From assembly GCA_903850425.1 (NCBI GenBank), contig CAINLR010000066.1, positions 1 through 64,000 of the forward strand: DNA of 64,000 nucleotides, given 5' to 3'. The first letter of the stretch is position 1; each line of letters starts with the position of its first letter. The notes beneath the pieces were generated by a model, which saw nothing but the letters and a program-made list of their open reading frames with translations, was not told the DNA's origin and searched no databases. The DNA is from an uncultured Verrucomicrobia subdivision 3 bacterium (GTDB lineage: Bacteria; Verrucomicrobiota; Verrucomicrobiia; Limisphaerales; UBA11358). The position numbers and the translations under genes are program-made. Below, piece after piece: positions 1 through 57,013 of the stretch.

Positions 1-98
1 ACCGCCTGCCGCGTCATGGCCAAACGCCTGCGCGACGTTTGCGCGTTGCCGGAAAGCAGGAAATCCTCGACGAGCAGATTGCGAAGAAGCTGGTGTGA
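1..98 (+). CDS. 3' end of an unidentified gene (partial, enters from the left edge)
   Basis: An open frame enters from the left edge (first full codon at base 3) and stops at TGA 96-98. The 31 visible residues end in GKQEILDEQIAKKLV, a plausible soluble C-terminus rich in Glu and Lys. The frame stops just before a block of palindromic repeats, as expected where a gene ends and an intergenic region begins. The stretch is too short to identify a family. The overlapping frame that starts at ATG 16 runs on into the repeats and is less likely to be real. Confidence 0.45.
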   Translation, partial: RLPRHGQTPARRLRVAGKQEILDEQIAKKLV

Positions 99-460
99 AG
101 CGTCTGCCGTCCCTGACGGGACTAATCAATTTGAATTGCGCTCCAACCCAGCCTTGAAAGGCTGGGCTATTATCGGCGGTCAACTTGGATTCGCGATCTG
201 GTCGTAAGCCTTTGAAAATAGCCCAGCCATTTATGGCTGGGTTCACGATTTGGGAATGCTCCAAGTCCCGTCAGGGACGAAAGAAATGGCCTGTCGTCCC
301 TGACGGGACTTTAAAATTCGGATTGCGCTTTTTCCCAGCCATAAATGGCTGGGCTATTTTCGGGTGAGGTCACTCCGACGGAGCTTTTGATTATTTGATT
401 TCGTGGGTTGCAAAGATTTCGCACCGCCGGTGCTGGCAGATTTGATTTCACCTCCTAGCT
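99..460. repeat. Block of interleaved palindromic intergenic repeats
   Basis: Two palindrome families alternate. Family 1 is the 14-mer GTCCCTGACGGGAC, at 109-122, 265-278 (reverse orientation) and 296-309. Family 2 is CCCAGCC-N6-GGCTGGG, at 148-167, 222-241 and 334-353, usually flanked by the text GGCTATT. Bases 361-460 continue with low-complexity text resembling dispersed verrucomicrobial intergenic repeats. No credible gene is seen from 99 to 634; bases 461-634 hold the presumed upstream region of the next gene. The elements resemble REP/BIME-type repeats, but no transposase is nearby. Confidence 0.75.
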
Positions 461-634
461 CAACCCGGCCATCTCGCTTCGGAGCGGGAGCATGGTCTTA
501 AAAACGGGCGCAGAAGTCCGGAAATACGATGACATAAAATGTAAGATATTGGGCAATTCACGTTCTTCTCCCCAGCCGCGTTCCTGTGGTTTAATCGCGA
601 TCGTCACCCAAAAGCAAATCATCACTAAAATCCT

Positions 635-1027
635 ATGAGCTATATTGATCCCGACCAATTCCACGGCGCGCTGAACAGCACGATCACGTTTCTCAAAGAC
701 GCGGACAATCAGGCCGAACTGACCGCCGGCGGCGTGGTTCCCGCGACTTTGCAAACCAAACTGGGTGGCCTCCTGGCCGACCAGGAAACCAAGAAGAGCA
801 CGCGCGACAAGGCCAAGACCGCGCACACCACCGCGCAAGGTGCTTTCGCGGACGGCGCAGCCAAGAACTACGCCGCCTACAGCAGCGTCATTGAAGCCGT
901 CGCCGGCGCGCTGGGCAAGGCTACCCCCAAGGGCAAGCAGGTGCTGGGCTACCGTCATCATCTGAACGCGAACGCCCATAAACAGGCGGCGGCACCATCC
1001 CCGGCGGCGGACAGCCCCAAACCCTGA
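635..1027 (+). CDS. Small Ala/Lys-rich hypothetical protein
   Basis: This encodes 130 residues from ATG (MSYIDPDQFHGAL) to TGA. I do not recognise the family. The composition is Ala-, Thr- and Lys-rich with few aromatics, and the central part (about residues 45-95) should be largely helical. The C-terminal tail is Pro/Ala/Ser-rich and probably disordered. There is no signal peptide or membrane segment, so a small cytoplasmic helical protein is likely. It stands alone and convergent to the sulfatase gene; the 21-bp palindrome array fills the gap between the two 3' ends. No strong Shine-Dalgarno sequence is visible. The start was chosen because it gives a well-behaved N-terminus and the upstream bases look non-coding. 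Confidence 0.7.
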   Translation: MSYIDPDQFHGALNSTITFLKDADNQAELTAGGVVPATLQTKLGGLLADQETKKSTRDKAKTAHTTAQGAFADGAAKNYAAYSSVIEAVAGALGKATPKGKQVLGYRHHLNANAHKQAAAPSPAADSPKP

Positions 1028-1061
1028 CAATTTGGCATAAGTCATTGATTTTACACCACAT

Positions 1062-1342
1062 CACCGGTGCCGTTGCTAATGGCACCGGTGCTTTTTTTAT
1101 CGGCACACGTGCCTTTCCCATCGGCACCGGTGCCGCCGTCAACTCCACTGGTGCTTTTGGGAACGGCACGCGTGCCGTGGCCGACTCCACCGGTGCCTGC
1201 TTGAACGGCACATGTGCCGTCGTCAACTCCACCGGTGCCGATGACAACTCCACACGTGCTTTTCAGAACGGCACCAGTGCCGGCGGCACCTCCACGCGTG
1301 CCGCCATGAACTCCACGCGTGCTTTTCTTAAAGGCACCGGGG
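1062..1342. repeat. 14-unit array of CACNNGTG palindromes, exact 21-bp period
   Basis: CACNNGTG cores begin at 1062, 1083, 1104, 1125, 1146, 1167, 1188, 1209, 1230, 1251, 1272, 1293, 1314 and 1335, always 21 bp apart with no indel; the last is degenerate (CACCGGGG). The central bases vary (CACCGGTG, CACACGTG, CACTGGTG, CACGCGTG, CACATGTG, CACCAGTG). The 13-bp spacers are divergent but end in either CGG or CTC. Because 21 is divisible by 3, several frames stay open: one plus-strand frame reads as heptads (T-G/R-A plus four residues) and one minus-strand frame as A-P/R-V heptads. The array lies between two convergent genes. I consider a DNA-level element more likely than a gene. Confidence 0.85.
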
Positions 1343-1365
1343 TTTTTCGGCTCAGGGAAGGAGGT

Positions 1366-2877
1366 TCAATCCGTGCTGGCTTTGTCGAGTGTGGCTTTGT
1401 AGGGAAACTCAGTTGAAGGCGTGTGCTGCTCGGCCAAGATCTTTTCCAGCTTCGCCACGAGGTCGGGATGCGCGGCAGCGACATCGGTGGTTTCGGCGGG
1501 ATCAGTTCCTAAGTTATAGAGTTCAGTCGTCGGCGCGGCAGGCTTCTTCGGCGTGTCGAGCAAATGGAGCCGCACCAGTTTCCAGTCACCCACGCGCACG
1601 GCCTGCATGCCGCCGACGCCGTGAAATTCGCGATACAAGAACGGGCGCTCCGGTTGTTTGCCGCCCAGCAACGTGGGGGCAAAGCTGATGCCGTCGGCCG
1701 TTTTTGGGATTCCGTTTTTCGCACCGGCCAATTCAAGTAGAGTCGGAAACCAATCCTCAAATCCCGTCACCAACGAAGCGGTTGTGCCGGCGGGAATGTG
1801 ACCTTTCCACGACACGATGAGCGGCTCGCGGATGCCGCCTTCGTAGATGTCCTGCTTGTAGCCGCGCAATTTGCCGTTGGATTGAAAATAGACGGGATCA
1901 ATGCCGGCGAGCGGAAATACCGCGCCGTTGTCCGAGGTGAAAATAATGATCGTGTCTTCTTCGAGGCCGAGATCCTTGACCAATTGCACCATCCGGCCAA
2001 TGTCGCGGTCCATCCGCGTGATCATCGCGGCGTAGGAGGCGTGTGGATATTGGTGCGGGAGATAACCATTGCCGCCGGGATAAGGCTTGTCGTCGAGCTT
2101 GCCCTTGTATTCTGCGAGCGAATCCTCCGGCACTTGCAGGGCGAGATGCGGCACGGTCGTCGGATAATAGAGAAAGAACGGCTTGTCCTTGTTGTCGCGA
2201 ATGAATTTCAGCGCGCGTTCGGTGCAGAGGTCGGGCGCATATTGTTTGCCAATGAAGCTGGCATAGCTGGCCGGATCATTCGGGTCCGCGCCGGGCGGGA
2301 GGGACAATCCTTCCTTCTCCGACACGTTCGTATTGCCGGTCAAGATGAACTTGCCCGCGTCATCATTCAGATATTGCGGAAAGTAGTTGTGCGCCTGCCG
2401 CTGATCGTTGAAGCCGAAGAAATGATCAAAGCCTTGGGCCAGCGGTTCGCCGGTTGAACCGACACCGCCAAGCCCCCATTTACCAAATGCGGCAGTTGCG
2501 TAGCCGGCAGATTTCAACGCCGCGGCGATACTTGGCTCCGTGGCGGGGAGCGGAATCTGACCTTGGAACGAATACCAGGTGCCGATCTCATGATTGTCGC
2601 GCACAAACTCATGGCCGGGATGCTTGCCCGTGATCAACACGCAGCGCGACGGCGCGCAAACTGGACTGCCCGCGTAATGCTGCGTGAACTTCATGCCGTC
2701 CGCCGCCAGCTTGTCGAGCGTCGGCGTGTGGATGATTTTCTGCCCGAACGCCCCGATGTCGCCGTAGCCCAAATCATCGGCCAGCACGAAAATAATGTTG
2801 GGTTTTCTTGCCGGCTCAGCCGCAGTCAAGTCCGCAGCAGCAAAAACCAATGTGAGCAGTGGGATGATTCGTTTCAT
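1366..2877 (-). CDS. Secreted type I sulfatase (arylsulfatase family)
   Basis: This is a 503-residue sulfatase that hydrolyses sulfate esters, probably on sulfated glycans, in the periplasm or outside the cell. Residues 1-20 form a signal peptide (MKRIIPLLTLVFAAADLTAA). The N-terminal metal-binding motif NIIFVLADDLGYGD is at about 27-40. Cys74 lies in C-A-P-S-R, the substrate for conversion to formylglycine, followed by LITGKHPGHE. A second metal-binding segment, FTSDNGA, is in the middle of the protein. The length suits the family. It is the last gene of a minus-strand cluster, 21 bp downstream of the GH95-like gene. The exact substrate cannot be read from the sequence, although the neighbouring GH95 homologue suggests a sulfated fucose-containing glycan (inference). 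No sulfatase-maturating enzyme is encoded in the window. Confidence 0.93.
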   Translation of the reverse strand: MKRIIPLLTLVFAAADLTAAEPARKPNIIFVLADDLGYGDIGAFGQKIIHTPTLDKLAADGMKFTQHYAGSPVCAPSRCVLITGKHPGHEFVRDNHEIGTWYSFQGQIPLPATEPSIAAALKSAGYATAAFGKWGLGGVGSTGEPLAQGFDHFFGFNDQRQAHNYFPQYLNDDAGKFILTGNTNVSEKEGLSLPPGADPNDPASYASFIGKQYAPDLCTERALKFIRDNKDKPFFLYYPTTVPHLALQVPEDSLAEYKGKLDDKPYPGGNGYLPHQYPHASYAAMITRMDRDIGRMVQLVKDLGLEEDTIIIFTSDNGAVFPLAGIDPVYFQSNGKLRGYKQDIYEGGIREPLIVSWKGHIPAGTTASLVTGFEDWFPTLLELAGAKNGIPKTADGISFAPTLLGGKQPERPFLYREFHGVGGMQAVRVGDWKLVRLHLLDTPKKPAAPTTELYNLGTDPAETTDVAAAHPDLVAKLEKILAEQHTPSTEFPYKATLDKASTD

Positions 2878-2898
2878 GTTTTGCCGAATGGTTGCCGG

Positions 2899-5241
2899 TT
2901 ATTTTTTAATTTCCACCACTGCGGCCAAATTTGCCGGAGCGGCCGGAATTGATTTAGGTTTGTCGAATAAAGCCTCAAGTCGCTCGCCTGCTTTCATTTT
3001 GATTTCAAAATTGTCCCCGACTTTCTTCACGCCGCGCAGATTCCATTTTGGCTCGCGCCCGCCGAAGTTATCCCGAATGCGGACGACCCCGTCACAACCA
3101 GCGATGACGCGCAGCCACGTCGTCGCGTTGTTCTCACGGTTCGCCGAGACGCGATGACCGCCCTCGGCGCGCAAATCAGTAAATGCCGCATCGTGCCAGC
3201 GCCACGGCGTCGCGGGAAAGATGCGGATAGCTCCCCAATCACCGCTGCCGAGTTCACCGCTCCAGCTTTGCAGCAACATTTCGTGAACCGCTTCCATCGC
3301 GAGAAAATTTCCTTCCAGCGTGAAGGGCCGGTAGGTGAAGCCGCTGAAACCGGATTTCGTCTGATCACCATTTGCGTGAAAACCGTTGCGCAGAATGAAA
3401 GCGCGGGCGTAGATATCGAGGTTGCGCAGCGCGGTCTCGGCGTCGCCGACACGCGCGCGCAGACAAGCCATCCATGAAAAGCTATAGCCACACCAACCGC
3501 CAGTGCCTTTGCTTGCCCAATCGGCAAGGCTGGCCGCGATCATCTGCCGGTCACGCTCACCGCCGTCCGTGGTGATGGTGTTGAACGGATGGATTGCAAT
3601 CAGGTTGGAGAGATGCCGGTGGCTGCCGGGCAGCGGCGTGGTTTCGTCGAGCAGCAGCGTGCCGTCGGCCTTGGCGTGAAAATCCCCGAGCTGTTTCGCG
3701 GTCGCGCGCCAATCGGCGGCAGCCTTGGCATCGCCAACAACCGTCGCCATCTCGGACAACGCGAGGAAGAGCATCTTCATGCTCGCGAGATCGTAGTTGC
3801 TGTTCGGCTGGAGAAAGGCGCGACGCGAGTTGTCGAAAATTTCCGGTGAACTCGACAACGGCAGCACCAGCACACCGTTGGTATCCGGCTTCAGCCGAGC
3901 GCGGAGACACGCGCCGATCTCGCGGCAAAAGGGATAAGCGCGCTCGCGCAAAAACTTTTCATCACCCGTCGCGCGCCAATGCAGATAGAAGAGATGCGCA
4001 TTCCACGCGCCCATTGTAGGCGAAAGACTATACTGACCCCAACCACCCAGTGGTTGCCCGGCCAGACTCATTACCCCCGGCACGGCGGCACCGGGCGCAT
4101 CGTAAAACTCTTTTGCGAATTGACGGAAGGTGGGCAGACGCTCCCAAAGGTAATCAAGAAAGCAGAGGCCCTCGTCAAAGTTGCCCGCCGTGCGATAGGC
4201 AAGATAGGTCATCTGGGTGTTGAGGTCGTTGTGATAATCGCCTTTCCACGGCGGCAGCGAACCGGCGTCCGCCGACCACACGCCTTGCAACGGCATCGGC
4301 GGTGCGCCGCGACGCGAGGCTGCGCCGTAGAAATAGCGCACGAGGTAATAGTGCTGGAGGATCTGCGGCTCGGGGACGAAGACTTGCGATCGATCCCAAA
4401 ATGCTGCCCACCACTTCGCGTGATCGGCGAGCAGTTTGTCGTAGCCCGCCTTGAGCGCAGTTTCGACGCGGCGTTGCGCGACGGCCTGCGGACTGTTGGC
4501 TTCAGCGCGCGTGGCGACGGTCACCGCGAGCAGAGTTTCATTGCCAACGCGCTTCCATGCGGCGCAGACGGCATATGAAAAACCATCCGCAGCGTCTTGC
4601 TCAAACCAGCGCAAGCCTTCGGCTTCTCCCATGCGCGGGGGCACGTAGCCGAGTTTCTTCACCGAGTCGGGAGATTGCAAACGCACGTCTTTTAGCGGCG
4701 GACCGGAGATGCGAACCAAGGCCACCGGCTCTTTGACATTGGCCGCGTTGACAAATGTGCGGATCAATTCGCCGGCCTTACCATTAACGACGCCTTCTGC
4801 CGTGGCGAGATTCAACTCGAATGCTTGGACGCTCTGCGATTCGTCTAGGGTTATCTCTACTCGTCCGGCAGGAAGCTTTGTGGGCGGGCCGTTATAGTCA
4901 TAGTTCGAGTCAAAGACTTTGTTGAACTCGTCCATCTTATTATTGGCCACCATGCGCTGCATCTCGGCCCAGGTGAAACGGCTTTTGACCTTGAGAAATT
5001 CCTTCGACGGCCGCTCGTCCCATAGGTCGCCGCGATCCAGCGAGAGCCGAATGGTATTATCCTTGCCCCAGAGCAGCACGCCCATCGCGCCATTGCCCAG
5101 TGGCACCGCTTCATCCCAGGTGGTGATGGGCGCGGCGAGTTTAAGGTTGAGGGATGAATCCGGCGGTAGCGGCTTGCCCCACGCCGTCAAGGCCAGCAAC
5201 GCCAACACGCCCAGCAGAAAAATTGATCGGCGCATTTTCAT
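2899..5241 (-). CDS. GH95-like glycosidase (alpha-fucosidase/galactosidase family), secreted
   Basis: This encodes about 780 residues from ATG 5241 (MKMRRSIF). ATG 5259 is an alternative; a longer frame to 5487 would overlap kbl. A signal peptide covers roughly residues 1-26. Family marks include PLGNGAMGVLLWG near the N-terminus, NDLNTQMTY, LSSSPE, HRHLSNL and LEGNFLAMEAVHEMLLQS, which match the order of motifs in GH95 (1,2-alpha-L-fucosidases and relatives). Two positions differ from characterised members as I recall them: the N-x-N motif reads D-L-N and the D-G-N-F motif reads E-G-N-F, so specificity or mechanism may differ. The gene sits 35 bp after kbl and 21 bp before the sulfatase, consistent with one transcript. 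Confidence 0.8.
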   Translation of the reverse strand: MKMRRSIFLLGVLALLALTAWGKPLPPDSSLNLKLAAPITTWDEAVPLGNGAMGVLLWGKDNTIRLSLDRGDLWDERPSKEFLKVKSRFTWAEMQRMVANNKMDEFNKVFDSNYDYNGPPTKLPAGRVEITLDESQSVQAFELNLATAEGVVNGKAGELIRTFVNAANVKEPVALVRISGPPLKDVRLQSPDSVKKLGYVPPRMGEAEGLRWFEQDAADGFSYAVCAAWKRVGNETLLAVTVATRAEANSPQAVAQRRVETALKAGYDKLLADHAKWWAAFWDRSQVFVPEPQILQHYYLVRYFYGAASRRGAPPMPLQGVWSADAGSLPPWKGDYHNDLNTQMTYLAYRTAGNFDEGLCFLDYLWERLPTFRQFAKEFYDAPGAAVPGVMSLAGQPLGGWGQYSLSPTMGAWNAHLFYLHWRATGDEKFLRERAYPFCREIGACLRARLKPDTNGVLVLPLSSSPEIFDNSRRAFLQPNSNYDLASMKMLFLALSEMATVVGDAKAAADWRATAKQLGDFHAKADGTLLLDETTPLPGSHRHLSNLIAIHPFNTITTDGGERDRQMIAASLADWASKGTGGWCGYSFSWMACLRARVGDAETALRNLDIYARAFILRNGFHANGDQTKSGFSGFTYRPFTLEGNFLAMEAVHEMLLQSWSGELGSGDWGAIRIFPATPWRWHDAAFTDLRAEGGHRVSANRENNATTWLRVIAGCDGVVRIRDNFGGREPKWNLRGVKKVGDNFEIKMKAGERLEALFDKPKSIPAAPANLAAVVEIKK

Positions 5242-16800: not shown

Positions 16801-19614
16801 CAATTGCACGGTGGGCACCACCTGGTTGGTGGTCGAAACGCTGGTCAGGCCGCCGGTGCCAAGGTTGAGCAGCCCGCCGGTCATGTAGAACGTGCTGTTG
16901 GTGCCATTCACCGAGCCAGTGATGCCATTGTCATCCACCGTCAGGCGCACGCAGTTGACCGTGCCGCCGATCATATTCATGATGCCAATGCCATCCCAGC
17001 CCACCGCCACCTGGCCGTTTGGAACATTGAGCGTGCCGCCGTTCATGACATAGGTGCATTGAGTATTGAGATCGTTGCCCCAGTGACCGATGCGAACATG
17101 GTTGACAACATTGATCGTGCCACCGTTCTGGATGACATCGCCTTTGAAGTTGCCCGGGTTGCCCAAGAGTAGAATCGCACCGACATTGACCAATCCACCC
17201 GCATTGACGGTCATTTTACCAACAAGACTCTGACTGACGCTGAAGTTACCATTGTTGCCCGACGAGAGGCTGGCGGTGCCGTCCACCGTCATGCCACCCG
17301 CACCGCGAATATTAATATCCCCGTAGCCGAACTGGTTCAGATTGCCGTCGCTGGTGATGAAGTTCTGGTTGGTGAAGGCATCGGTGCGGGAGATGTAGAG
17401 CGAACCATAGTTGGTGATGTTGCCCGCCGTGCTGCTGCCGGCGGTCGGCGTGCTGCTGCCCAGATAGAGCGTGCCGTTCAGATGCGTCAGGCCACCGGTG
17501 AAGGTGTTGGTGCCCGTCAAACTCAACGTGGCGCCGGGAATAAAAGTGGTGACGCTGCCCGTGCCGCTCATATTGCCGGCATAAGTGCTGGAGAGACTCT
17601 GGTTGAAGCTGACTTTGGTATTATTGGTCAAAAGACCGGAGCCGAGCCCGCCGGGGTTGCCGCCGTTGCCCACATTGACCGACCCACCGCTCAACAGGCC
17701 GCCACCGGTGTTATCATTGGCGGTAAGAATGGTGAGGGTGCCGGAACTGGTCTTGTTGAGCCGGGACGAGCTGGAAAGTTTGCCGCTGCCGGCAAAGGTA
17801 TAGTCTTTAGTGCCCGCCACGGTCACGATATTGGCCGGGAGTGCGCCGACGAGATTGACCGGCGGCGTATTCGAACCGGTGTCGTTGAAAGTGGCGTTAT
17901 CGCCCGTGAGGAAGACATCCTTGTTCACCCCATTCATGAAATTGGCCGAGGTGTTGAGATCCCAATTGTTGGTCGCACCATCACCGCGCCAGACCAGCGG
18001 AGCGGCATTGGGGACGACCGTCACCTTGATCGAAGTGCCATCGCTCGTGAATGTATAGGTGGAACGCGAGGCCGCCGCGGCGAGCGTCGTCACCGGACCC
18101 GCCGCCGGACCCTGGCCAAGGGGATAGGTGATAAGCGTATAGGGACTGGCGGACGGCGTGCCGCTGAACGTGAAATTGACTATATTCGTGTTCCCAGTGG
18201 AGAGCGAGAGGTTGGTGCAAGTGATCAAGTCGTTCACCCCGCCGCCCACGGTCGTGACGCTAGCCAGATTAAAATTCAAGACCAGCGCGTTGCCGTTGAA
18301 CGTCAAGCCATCCATCGCGAGGGTGCCGGCCACTGCGCCGCCGGGGCTGATCACCGACCCAATCGCGCCGGCGTCGTTGTCAATCACGGTGCCCACCACC
18401 CGGCCCACGCCCACGAGCGCCTGATTCGTGTTCAGGGTAAACGACGTGGCGGAGACGTCGAACGTGCCATTCGTGCCCAGGGTGATGGTCGGAGTCCGCG
18501 CAATGCTGCCCGGCCCGGTCAATGCCAGGGTGCCGGCGTTGATGATCGTCGCGCTGGTATAAGTGTTGGCTTCCGCCAAAGCCAGCAAGCCGGCACCGGA
18601 TTTGATCAGGCCAAGGTCAGTGGCCGAAGCGGTATGAGCAATCACGCTCGAAACATTCACCGTGTCGCCCGCGCCGATATTGAACACCGTGCCGCCGGTC
18701 TGGCCCAAAGTGACATTGCCGCCCTCGATGCTGGAGGTGGAACCGTTGGTGAGAGTGGAGACGCCATAATCCAAATTCCAGTTGCCATAATCGCTGCGGG
18801 GGGTCGTCGCGGACAGCGTGCCACCGTTCAAGATCAGGGCGGACACATGACCAGAACGGTCAACCGTCGTCACGAGGCCACCCGCGTTAATGGTAACACT
18901 GCGAGGTGGCGCGAGCGTCGCGCCGTTGCCAAACACAGAATTATCCACCAGCGCGTTGACCGTCGCCCCGCTATTAACGACCAGGTTGCTGGTGCCGACG
19001 CAACCCGAACCAGTGGAGTTGGCGCTCCGAGCATTGATCGTTCCGGCATTGGCGGTGAGTCCCCCGGAGTAAGTATTGAGCGCGGCAAACGTCAAAGTTC
19101 CCGCGTCGTTCTTGACCAGGGAGCCGGTCCCCGAAACCACGCCCGCCAGCACGACGTCACCATCGCCAGCCATCGTGAGCGCGTTCGCGCCCACGCTGAG
19201 CGTGTTCGATACGCTCAGGGTGCCGCCCGAGGCACTCGCAAAACTCTGCGCCGCGCTCAGGGTCAGTGGCAAGGTAAGGGTGTTGGCACCGGAAGTATTG
19301 GTCATGCCGGCAGCCAGCGTGATGGCGTTCCCACCCACGGTGAAATCGCCGATATCGAAGCGCAGCCAGCCCAAGTTCAAGCCGACAATATCGTTGGTGT
19401 TGAACGTCCGGTTGCCCGTAGCGAAGATGACATTGTCGCCGCTCACGGGTGTGACATCCCAGTTGCCCGCGCTGTTCCAAAAATCATCGGTGCCGCTGCC
19501 GCCAGCCCAAGTGCGATCCGCCGCCCAGGCGGACGGCCCGCCAACCAGCAGGAGTGACACAATCCCCAGCCGCGCGGCGAGGACACAGTTCCAGTTTATG
19601 AGTTTTGTTTTCAT
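10819..19614 (-). CDS. Giant secreted PATR (autotransporter-associated beta-strand repeat) protein
   Basis: This encodes 2931 residues. A signal peptide covers about residues 1-31 (cut near SAWA-ADRTW). The rest is Gly/Asn/Thr/Ser-rich with dozens of PATR units of the form L-x-K-x-G-x-G-T-L-x-L...N-x-Y-x-G-x-T...G-T-L, the right-handed beta-helix stitch found in autotransporter passengers. A different module (W-x-G-D-G...N-W-D...D-x-V-x-F-D-D-T) restarts at about residues 33, 538, 1141 and 1990. No autotransporter barrel is visible; the last ~75 residues form a conserved module ending VFYRMVY, shared with the genes at 38887 and 51589. A role as a surface fibre or adhesin is inferred. Long open frames on the opposite strand are composition artefacts. 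Confidence 0.88.
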   Translation of the reverse strand: MKTKLINWNCVLAARLGIVSLLLVGGPSAWAADRTWAGGSGTDDFWNSAGNWDVTPVSGDNVIFATGNRTFNTNDIVGLNLGWLRFDIGDFTVGGNAITLAAGMTNTSGANTLTLPLTLSAAQSFASASGGTLSVSNTLSVGANALTMAGDGDVVLAGVVSGTGSLVKNDAGTLTFAALNTYSGGLTANAGTINARSANSTGSGCVGTSNLVVNSGATVNALVDNSVFGNGATLAPPRSVTINAGGLVTTVDRSGHVSALILNGGTLSATTPRSDYGNWNLDYGVSTLTNGSTSSIEGGNVTLGQTGGTVFNIGAGDTVNVSSVIAHTASATDLGLIKSGAGLLALAEANTYTSATIINAGTLALTGPGSIARTPTITLGTNGTFDVSATSFTLNTNQALVGVGRVVGTVIDNDAGAIGSVISPGGAVAGTLAMDGLTFNGNALVLNFNLASVTTVGGGVNDLITCTNLSLSTGNTNIVNFTFSGTPSASPYTLITYPLGQGPAAGPVTTLAAAASRSTYTFTSDGTSIKVTVVPNAAPLVWRGDGATNNWDLNTSANFMNGVNKDVFLTGDNATFNDTGSNTPPVNLVGALPANIVTVAGTKDYTFAGSGKLSSSSRLNKTSSGTLTILTANDNTGGGLLSGGSVNVGNGGNPGGLGSGLLTNNTKVSFNQSLSSTYAGNMSGTGSVTTFIPGATLSLTGTNTFTGGLTHLNGTLYLGSSTPTAGSSTAGNITNYGSLYISRTDAFTNQNFITSDGNLNQFGYGDINIRGAGGMTVDGTASLSSGNNGNFSVSQSLVGKMTVNAGGLVNVGAILLLGNPGNFKGDVIQNGGTINVVNHVRIGHWGNDLNTQCTYVMNGGTLNVPNGQVAVGWDGIGIMNMIGGTVNCVRLTVDDNGITGSVNGTNSTFYMTGGLLNLGTGGLTSVSTTNQVVPTVQLGGGTISAVAPAGFTSSLHMWFTNGTPTFSNNNNNVTLTGVLKGNGGLTKAGTGVLQLDATNIYSGTTTVAGGRLQGGGVISGPVIVQTNAVLSAGGTYARGTLTVSNNVTVNQGASLVLDQASTAASTDLIKVVGNLTLDAATPLYLNFTGGLPYTGGTNIIVTNTGTRVGSLVYVNPTRYAMTLDQSNPNFISTGFTGTNANLVWKGNIDNQWNVNNTLNWLNGASADRYYQSDAVILDNTGIAQPNITLASTINPASVTVNAAGNYKLAGGDVVSLGTLTKNGSGTLTLDNYNWFTSGAFVNAGTLQIGNGGSTGYFSNNIVNNATVTFNHSTESTYYSTMSGSGTLTVSGPGKLILVANQSHFGGSLINAGSTVQIGNGLLANSGSLGNGTATNNGALIFYETALSVATALSGSGSLTFLGTGIAAQSSYPLNATNTFTGPVVLSLSRIQSGYGALSFGNPSSITVNPLSQVYAVSQPFSSVFNLPLTLAGTGWQDGLGALRMEPNVVGNPGVTWAGPITLANNARIGVNTASTNTITGTITGAAYELETYGGNATAALILAPSTPNTFASLRVSIGTAGAKTIAGNANALPNNIPLYMNGGTLQLNGFSKSFGPYLNLNASSSIQNGSTNALTTVTLAPVLGISTNSGTFADGASQPLNVTFSQTPGLWTLALTGASANWTGNLTNNGGIITVGGTTGSAYLGANAGNTLGRNIVGNNGAVFFNSINNTLNGYAGNVVLNNSSWICNRYISMAANAGYLYLANATMTGTNSSDGNYESWLLPSTVLVRGNGPSYMLGTGTSAAFDLQSSGTTFDVADVTGNANSDLIVGGGSSTTFLHAPANATTGGSLIKTGAGTLELNGLNSYTGSTVISNGVIKLGAAATLPTSSITVASGATLDASALGTLTLSATGETLKGGGTVLGIVSDGATSVIAPGSGGAGTLTVGGLVLNGSGGTLAIELNSTTTTVGSGVNDLIQVNGDLSLNDSAPTLVNFAFLNGPPAAGTYTILKWTGNVTGTAAGLTNTFNGTFTVDTSAKEVRVTFVAPPAQSLVWQGDGGGNSWDVSTSSINWSNAAALMLTNFFQFDAVRFDDTSANTTVDIPVTVTPASITFDSVNNYTLQGAGQISGNLTITKQNVNTVIMNAKNTAVGPINVNAGTYALGKNDTYVGATVVTVSNGAAFDFAGYNDNTLGLAHTFVIAGSGPDGQGALRNENLNIVSYANVSNLTLTANSVIGSGGTTRWDIGPFTNGTVNGQGYSLTKVGNGTLDMRAQFITNVASITVSNGYMFYENYQQTNAWTATTTNYIKPGASLGNYGGLMIGLPLVLDGAVVKNEGNGTPNWAGPIRVDSSSVFSNNAAQIVSGIISGPGGITLDGGVAAVTVSNANSYAGGTIIGNAPATIIGAGTSGTAALIVANASALGSGPLTISGSSYSSLSTNAAYFGTNILRPVEFNLTGGIVPNAINLPTTIITNVALQGRDGSSAVTLSGKISGGHTALTNWFDNGVGNVGVIRLSNPANDFVAGRIIVNRGTLALTTDALGNLGNTLAPAASSTVRIDAAAVTLAHPINAVNNPVYFDLFGDNNGDGVPETVNNATISGLISGAGTIYPRGTNSVLTLTGLNTFSGGFELQQPLTLSVAASTNLGTAYVAIKYGSTFRYTGTGSETMTRILWMDNNVGGTIDIPSASASLTWNPSGGTLNQPLAKTGAGTLTYGTQVISGGSLSVNGGAMTVNSAISGATWLTVNNGSTLTLNGANTHVFPTVVNSGKLFVNGTIPAGSPVSISGAGASILGGSGTINSVVTVNAGASLQPGVNAIGKLTINNTLNLAGSTVMEVNGDGVRTNDAVTGLVTLNYGGSLVVNNLGSQNSLTNGVKFSLFSALLLQGTFSSITLPPLNSGLGWSTNLWLDGSIQVVATVNTSRTNLTTAVVGNQLILSWPADHTGWKLQAQTNSVNAGLNPAGWVTIPNTELSNSYTNTIDPVAPTVFYRMVY

Positions 19615-56976: not shown

Positions 56977-56979
56977 GTG

Positions 56980-57013
56980 TTATGGTTCGGGTTTAGTTAT
57001 GGTTCGGGTTTAG
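56980..57013. repeat. Perfect 17-bp tandem duplication in the PATR gene leader
   Basis: TTATGGTTCGGGTTTAG occurs twice head to tail at 56980-56996 and 56997-57013, starting 4 bp upstream of the ATG at 56976. Two identical copies suggest a recent slippage event or a repeated binding site. Copy-number change here would alter the spacing upstream of the start codon. Confidence 0.85.

Follow-up and report, generated by a model that had tools for sequence, protein, structure and literature searches.

Non-coding arrays of short direct repeats that lie beside a small gene are known from plasmid centromeres of the ParR/parC type, in which families differ from one another in the repeat and, in step with it, in the specificity of the binder, and in which the repeats of pSK41 are 20 bp long (PMC9426499). 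In type III toxin-antitoxin loci a repeat array adjoins one small gene with a terminator nearby, and in toxI-toxN the array is 5′ of the gene (PMC5086642). The BrickBuilt minisatellite MITE of Porphyromonas gingivalis is an intergenic tandem array with a 23-nt unit, one conserved sequence and 19 copies per genome, and is not known to have a companion gene family (PMC4596501). Tandem dyad-symmetric repeats whose palindrome varies between sources are also described for PARCEL, as 75-nt units that code a 25-residue motif (PMC2996958). REP/BIME and the Rickettsia palindromic elements share palindromic units with the locus described here, and the latter occur in frame within genes. Both are known as dispersed copies rather than as phased tandem arrays. 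CRISPR repeats are near-identical and are longer than the whole 21-bp unit considered below.

We analyzed a stretch of 64,000 nt (the window), in which a 21-bp array fills the gap between a small gene on the plus strand, here called X, and a convergent sulfatase gene on the minus strand, as the original prediction had placed it. The features of the locus are as follows.

635..1027, plus strand: gene X, a 130-aa open reading frame of no known family; predicted helical bundle with a low-confidence Pro/Ala-rich tail
1062..1334, no strand: 21-bp array of 13 exact units, each a CACNNGTG core, an invariant C and 12 more-variable bases
1062..1098, plus strand: terminator-like hairpin for gene X, with a 13-bp stem (1062-1090), a loop of 3 and then a T-run; also the first array hairpin
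1335..1342, no strand: degenerate 14th core, CACCGGGG
1366..2877, minus strand: sulfatase, convergent neighbour of the array and outside the module

The units start at 1062, 1083 and so on to 1335, with a step of 21 bp and zero indels. This is the predicted spacing, although of the 14 CACNNGTG cores that had been claimed 13 are exact and the last reads CACCGGGG. Throughout units 1-13 the CAC and GTG ends are invariant and the centre and spacer vary, as had been noticed, and the C following the core proved to be invariant as well. Exact CACNNGTG occurs 13 times in 1055-1345, compared with 0.1 expected from letter shuffles of the same stretch. Tandem Repeats Finder reported rows of period 21, 42 and 63 at the array and no second period-21 array in the 64-kb window, and a DNA search of the window's genome found a single place and no further copy. 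Folded on its phase, the array has a dyad score of 0.65, as against 0.43 ± 0.04 with the 21 columns permuted (z 5.3, p 0.003), under a null that is somewhat lenient in that arrays of other periods also pass. With a unit of 21 bp and nine conserved positions per unit, the locus was rejected as a CRISPR array. Terminator-like sites number three in 560-1500 and 1.7 are expected in shuffles, so the terminator call at 1062..1098 is a consensus match only.

The orthologous locus of a sister species, G026, carries a gene X with 88% DNA identity and a dN/dS of 0.26. Gene X and the array are common to both species, and the sequence past the array does not align. The two arrays align gap-free, and their second unit is identical. 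Over the 13 units none of the 91 positions in the CAC and GTG columns and the next C had changed; 35 of 65 positions in spacer columns 12-16 and 15 of 26 centre positions had. For this one species pair, dN/dS is 0.91 in the open sense frame of the array and 0.61-1.06 in the other five frames, and the differences are spread over the three codon positions as 28, 24 and 26. Together, the unchanged cores, the dN/dS of 0.91 and the even spread over codon positions show the half-sites to be held and the frame to be free, in line with the earlier claim that selection acts on the dyads and their spacing over any reading frame. Homologues that keep a frame and lose the dyads had been named as the sign of a coding repeat; against G026 we found the opposite, a kept dyad and an unconstrained frame. 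Judged by this comparison the window array is non-coding, and a coding repeat was rejected for it on the dN/dS of 0.91 and the even codon-position differences. Silent sites of gene X had changed at 24.5 of 93.7, and spacer columns 12-16 and the centre of the array diverge more than this. Pairing orthologous units gave 78 differences, compared with 99 for random pairing, the minimum among 500 random pairings being 76. Spacers and centres that outrun silent sites, together with a unit order that is only moderately kept, imply that the units turn over.

A search of related genomes for phased CACNNGTG, which the original prediction had foreseen, recovered three in-phase cores in 3 of 320 genomes of the window's order, G026 among them. 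Given so few, a search with CACNNGTG alone would miss the class, which itself has other cores: X homologues elsewhere mostly have 21-bp arrays downstream, with other palindromes. The link to gene X and the place of the window array as one of many with different cores are absent from the original prediction. We scanned 799 kb of four genomes in the genus for periodicity, on contigs mostly chosen for holding X, and obtained 32 period-21 peaks, some of them the same array, versus 15 peaks for the remaining periods between 10 and 40 combined; by eye, coiled-coil coding tracts account for five of the 32 (four in L077, one in L086). The tract at L077:6991-8117 (contig C66 of the window's genome, G000), by eye a long heptad coiled-coil coding tract with a period of 21 bp, is a natural coding control for the scan. 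One genome, G019, has 14 arrays of 7-17 units each, with differing cores, in ~267 kb, a count that omits the coiled-coil tract L086 and three weaker places with scores of 0.50-0.53 (L082 at 18, L087 at 2573 and L093 at 16887-17106). An array of this genome, L083:12032-12301, lies in frame within an alaS-like gene (by eye), to which it would add ~12 GANPPTV-type heptads. On contigs chosen for X in four further families of the order (400 kb), period 21 made up 7 of 21 peaks, four of the seven beside X genes, and a 400-kb sample of 20 genomes from the rest of the phylum yielded a single period-21 peak, which has the look of a coiled coil. A further 384 kb from 12 genus genomes without detected X or Y had one such peak, which falls within an open frame of 1413 nt; in genomes that do have X or Y, 369 kb contained seven, three of them (L259, L260, L264) beside Y genes on contigs chosen for that and one (L252) in a 1803-nt open frame.

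The dyad test (p ≤ 0.05) was passed by 28 of the 40 arrays that are not coiled-coil tracts, and the other 12 lack significant dyads. Arrays of other periods passed in 9 of 32 cases, and since the null is lenient the fair contrast is 70% vs 28%. One of three coiled-coil tracts passed, and 20 further Y arrays divided into 14 that passed and six that failed. A ~590-bp segment with a CACATGTG array is present in two copies in G017 (L010:2116-2707 and L011:5641-6251, 94.5% over 546 bp), one between a tyrosine-recombinase-like and a Y-like gene (both by eye) and the other by unrelated genes. In the open literature, which our search covered in part, we found no published description of 21-bp phased arrays in Verrucomicrobia; as far as that search reaches, the class is apparently undescribed.

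We detected gene X in 20 genomes among 320 of the order and in one of 194 sampled over the phylum, the window's own. A protein search named six relatives, all of them metagenome-assembled genomes: four carry the label Verrucomicrobia, including three of subdivision 3, and the other two are labelled only 'bacterium'. The AlphaFold2 model of X, built on an alignment of five, has five helices, no strand and a mean pLDDT of 80. Among seven X proteins scanned there was no credible Pfam match and no PADLOC match. NCBIfam and PHROG gave weak single-member matches only, including TIGR04320 (E 0.0007) and a phage tail family (E 0.002), and Foldseek returned no neighbour below E 1. The best VIA Z score for X, 9.9, is within the range in which this tool scores helical bundles that lack true relatives, among the families present in VIA. 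X had no match in plasmids, and its alignment A2 had none in viral contigs. Across the 22 X sequences that were aligned a single residue is invariant, an Arg that lies within a basic C-terminal stretch; this is compatible, weakly, with nucleic-acid contact.

Two further gene families, Y and Z, adjoin 21-bp arrays. Y proteins are ~220 aa long; the one in L093 has no Pfam match, and two Y-like proteins match fn3 (E 4e-6 and 0.02). At the curated Pfam cut-off X, Y and Z had no match apart from fn3 in one Y-like protein, and no known DNA-binding domain was found in any of the three. X and Y were rejected as a single family (profile comparison probability 2%), and Y was not found in viral contigs, plasmids or phages. 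We scored an array as beside a gene when period 21 was best, with a score of at least 0.5, within 900 bp. By this measure 23 of 27 X loci have an array on the 3′ side and none of the 27 has one on the 5′ side; tandem or split matches are counted once, and leaving out the window locus, which is included here, gives 22 of 26 on the 3′ side. The four X loci below threshold are L014 (score 0.45, with period 21 best), L055, L067 and L059.

For Y the side is reversed, with the array 5′ in 12 of 19 loci, or 11 of 18 once the query is dropped, and 3′ in none of the 19. This first set held 20 loci including the array-led query L185, 19 of them with at least 300 bp of flank, and it leaves out array-led Y-like genes recognized by eye (L076, L084, two in L085, L103 and L010). 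A later profile search added 14 loci absent from the first set, three further places without a locus being left out, and here the array is 5′ in 10 and 3′ in none; the 10 include L214 and L226, which have an identical array on two contigs with only ~155 bp of 5′ flank. At three Y loci scored as misses (L225, L220, L222) period 21 is best, with scores of 0.43-0.49. Z was searched after a single sighting beside a G017 array and has 25 loci; among the 24 that offer 300 bp of flank on the counted side, the array is 3′ in 14 of 24 and 5′ in 1 of 24. Loci without an array at threshold thus number 4/27 for X, 7/19 and 4/14 for Y and 10/24 for Z on its 3′ side. Background tiles of 900 bp under the same test were positive in 35 of 1319 cases in the order's genomes, where the tiles include some of these loci themselves, and in 1 of 440 outside the order. 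The linkage is incomplete from the side of the arrays as well: in G019, 8 of 14 have no X or Y-like neighbour, one of these being the array in frame inside the alaS-like gene, where the genes of L084 and two in L085 are treated as Y-like by eye and the Y profile omits them. In L084 (10482-12674) a protein that is Cas9-like by eye adjoins the array, and the Y-like gene is on the array's other side. In the window's genome, at L079:13132-13386 (contig C7), a second X gene has an array that starts where an aspS-like gene (by eye) stops; this array and the end of the aspS-like gene also align in G235. The same genome has a Z-like gene with a 21-bp array 3′ (L283, contig C37, 67998-68537, score 0.54).

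Set against the described systems, the array would work most like the ParR/parC centromeres, with their joint divergence of repeat and binder. The differences are that the present arrays lie on chromosomal contigs, number several to many per genome and have dyad units, that the X array is 3′ of its gene, that X is modelled as a helical bundle and not as ribbon-helix-helix, and that no motor gene was recognized among the two genes flanking the window array, X without a family and the sulfatase (PMC9426499). The resemblance to type III toxin-antitoxin loci extends to the 5′ position of the Y array, but X and Z arrays are 3′ and there is no RNA-strand signature (PMC5086642). The type III order of array, terminator and toxin gene is not what we found for X (3′ in 23/27, 5′ in 0/27), and neither PADLOC nor a credible Pfam match pointed to a ToxN-like endoribonuclease among seven X proteins. 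Unlike BrickBuilt (PMC4596501), the window array is at one place in its genome and the G017 segment at two, cores differ from array to array, and the arrays are linked to X, Y and Z. The window unit differs from that of PARCEL in its 21 bp and its freedom from coding constraint. The in-frame habit of the Rickettsia palindromic elements has its counterpart in the alaS-like array.

Cores tend to go with the subfamily of X more than with the genome, with subfamilies set by eye from alignments and core motifs chosen after viewing the arrays. TTCCN4GGAA, with one mismatch allowed, occurs 4, 11, 8, 0 and 7 times in the five subfamily-II arrays, that is, in four of five; the zero is G145, which by eye has the same half-sites wider apart. 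GTTTN3AAAC occurs 5, 5, 3, 1 and 2 times in the five subfamily-III arrays, hence in all of them. The arrays of subfamilies II and III come from three and two bacterial families, respectively. In the other 19 arrays TTCCN4GGAA was met 1, 1, 2, 3 and 3 times (window, L046, L050, L052, L068), and outside subfamily III GTTTN3AAAC was met 1, 5 and 4 times (L063, L068, L132). In each of three genomes (G000, G019 and G025) two X subfamilies occur and their cores differ, so the genome alone does not set the core. The pattern could equally arise if gene and array had descended together vertically.

If selection acted on an RNA helix, GT mismatches should be favored over AC. Dyad pairs over 21 arrays, counted in the sense of the neighbouring gene, have 100 GT and 92 AC mismatches (p 0.61); arrays without a gene have 28 GT and 20 AC, and the window array, in the sense of X, has 7 AC and 1 GT. 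The balance points to double-stranded DNA, short of proof. Within-unit covariation about the best dyad axis was positive over 28 arrays (z 5.4, opposite axis -4.2); we set it aside because the data that gave the value had also served to pick the axis, and because arrays with indels (L010, L094) inflate it. A structured 3′ RNA had been one of three options in the original prediction, and we regard it as quite unlikely. It would be a transcribed chain of hairpins, a scaffold or antitoxin-like RNA for the neighbouring protein comparable to type III loci. On either strand the array does fold much better than its shuffles (z -8.5 and -6.2), and a spacer-centred hairpin with a 3-nt loop exists; however, good folding is expected of any periodic palindrome, there is no strand bias between GT and AC, window positions 1-3000 match no Rfam family at gathering score, and the phasing is exactly 21 in the window though RNA loops could vary. 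Terminator-like hairpins at the start of the window array and, by eye, between gene and array at two subfamily-III loci also stand against it. That the arrays are terminator or insulator blocks separating genes is very unlikely in our view: the window array lies between convergent genes with terminator-like sites at its first and last units, but the region has three such sites against 1.7 in shuffles, a single hairpin would be enough, and other arrays are 5′ of Y or between divergent genes, where terminators are unneeded.

The third of the original options, a heptad-repeat protein, could draw on the one sense and one antisense frame that stay open through the window array and on the in-frame alaS-like array of G019; against the lack of frame constraint toward G026, and with stops in all three sense frames of the array of a subfamily-I X gene in G019 (L088), it is extremely improbable. 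A reading outside those options, which we consider unlikely, is that the arrays are selfish or neutral palindromic minisatellites that grow by slippage, with template switching keeping the palindromes and X, Y and Z as passengers of mobile segments. The outpacing of gene X silent sites by spacer and centre, the loosely kept unit order, the doubled G017 segment, the array inside the alaS-like gene and the differing cores within one genome all suit such a process. It is less easily squared with the absence of any core change in 91 positions, with related cores across bacterial families and with a fixed polarity to three gene families. Among a binding array, a structured RNA and a heptad protein, the binding array is the best supported.

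We tentatively favor, as a plausible reading of these patterns, a cis-acting double-stranded-DNA array of dimer sites that is cognate to the small protein of its module, a module being the array and the adjacent small-protein gene (X in the window, Y or Z elsewhere). Each 21-bp unit would be an operator-like dyad, in the window with CAC and GTG half-sites and a 2-bp centre, read by a symmetric, probably dimeric protein. With two helical turns to each 21-bp unit, twelve units or more would lie on one face of the DNA, where they could nucleate a cooperative protein-DNA filament or loop. Because each module has its own core, the likeliest ligand would be the module's own protein or a partner that it recruits. 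We speculate that such a complex may serve self-regulation, partition or addiction-like maintenance. A bolder extension, which we think unlikely, is that the order carries many self-specific modules, each a fast-evolving small protein with a private 21-bp array on which the protein or its partner assembles, forming mutually orthogonal chromosomal address systems. In any event there is now a partner that can be tested for each of X, Y and Z, namely the phased array found to one fixed side of its gene. Should each protein bind the array of its own module, the modules would make up a natural collection of protein-DNA pairs whose specificities co-vary, of use in studying how recognition diverges and as a source of orthogonal DNA addresses; if they do not, the arrays would be palindrome-keeping minisatellites whose unusual core conservation would still have to be explained.

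Other repeats were seen in the window. Positions 120-375 hold repeated short REP-like palindromes of GGCTGGGCTATT and GTCCCGTCAGGGAC types, and the Rfam family Acido-Lenti-1 (RF01687) matches 147-180, 207-241 and 334-374 below its gathering score. In G026 (L008 1-363) a transposase-like frame, recognized by eye, is just upstream of repeats that resemble those of 120-375. At 56979-57013 there are two perfect copies of a 17-bp unit, GTTATGGTTCGGGTTTA.
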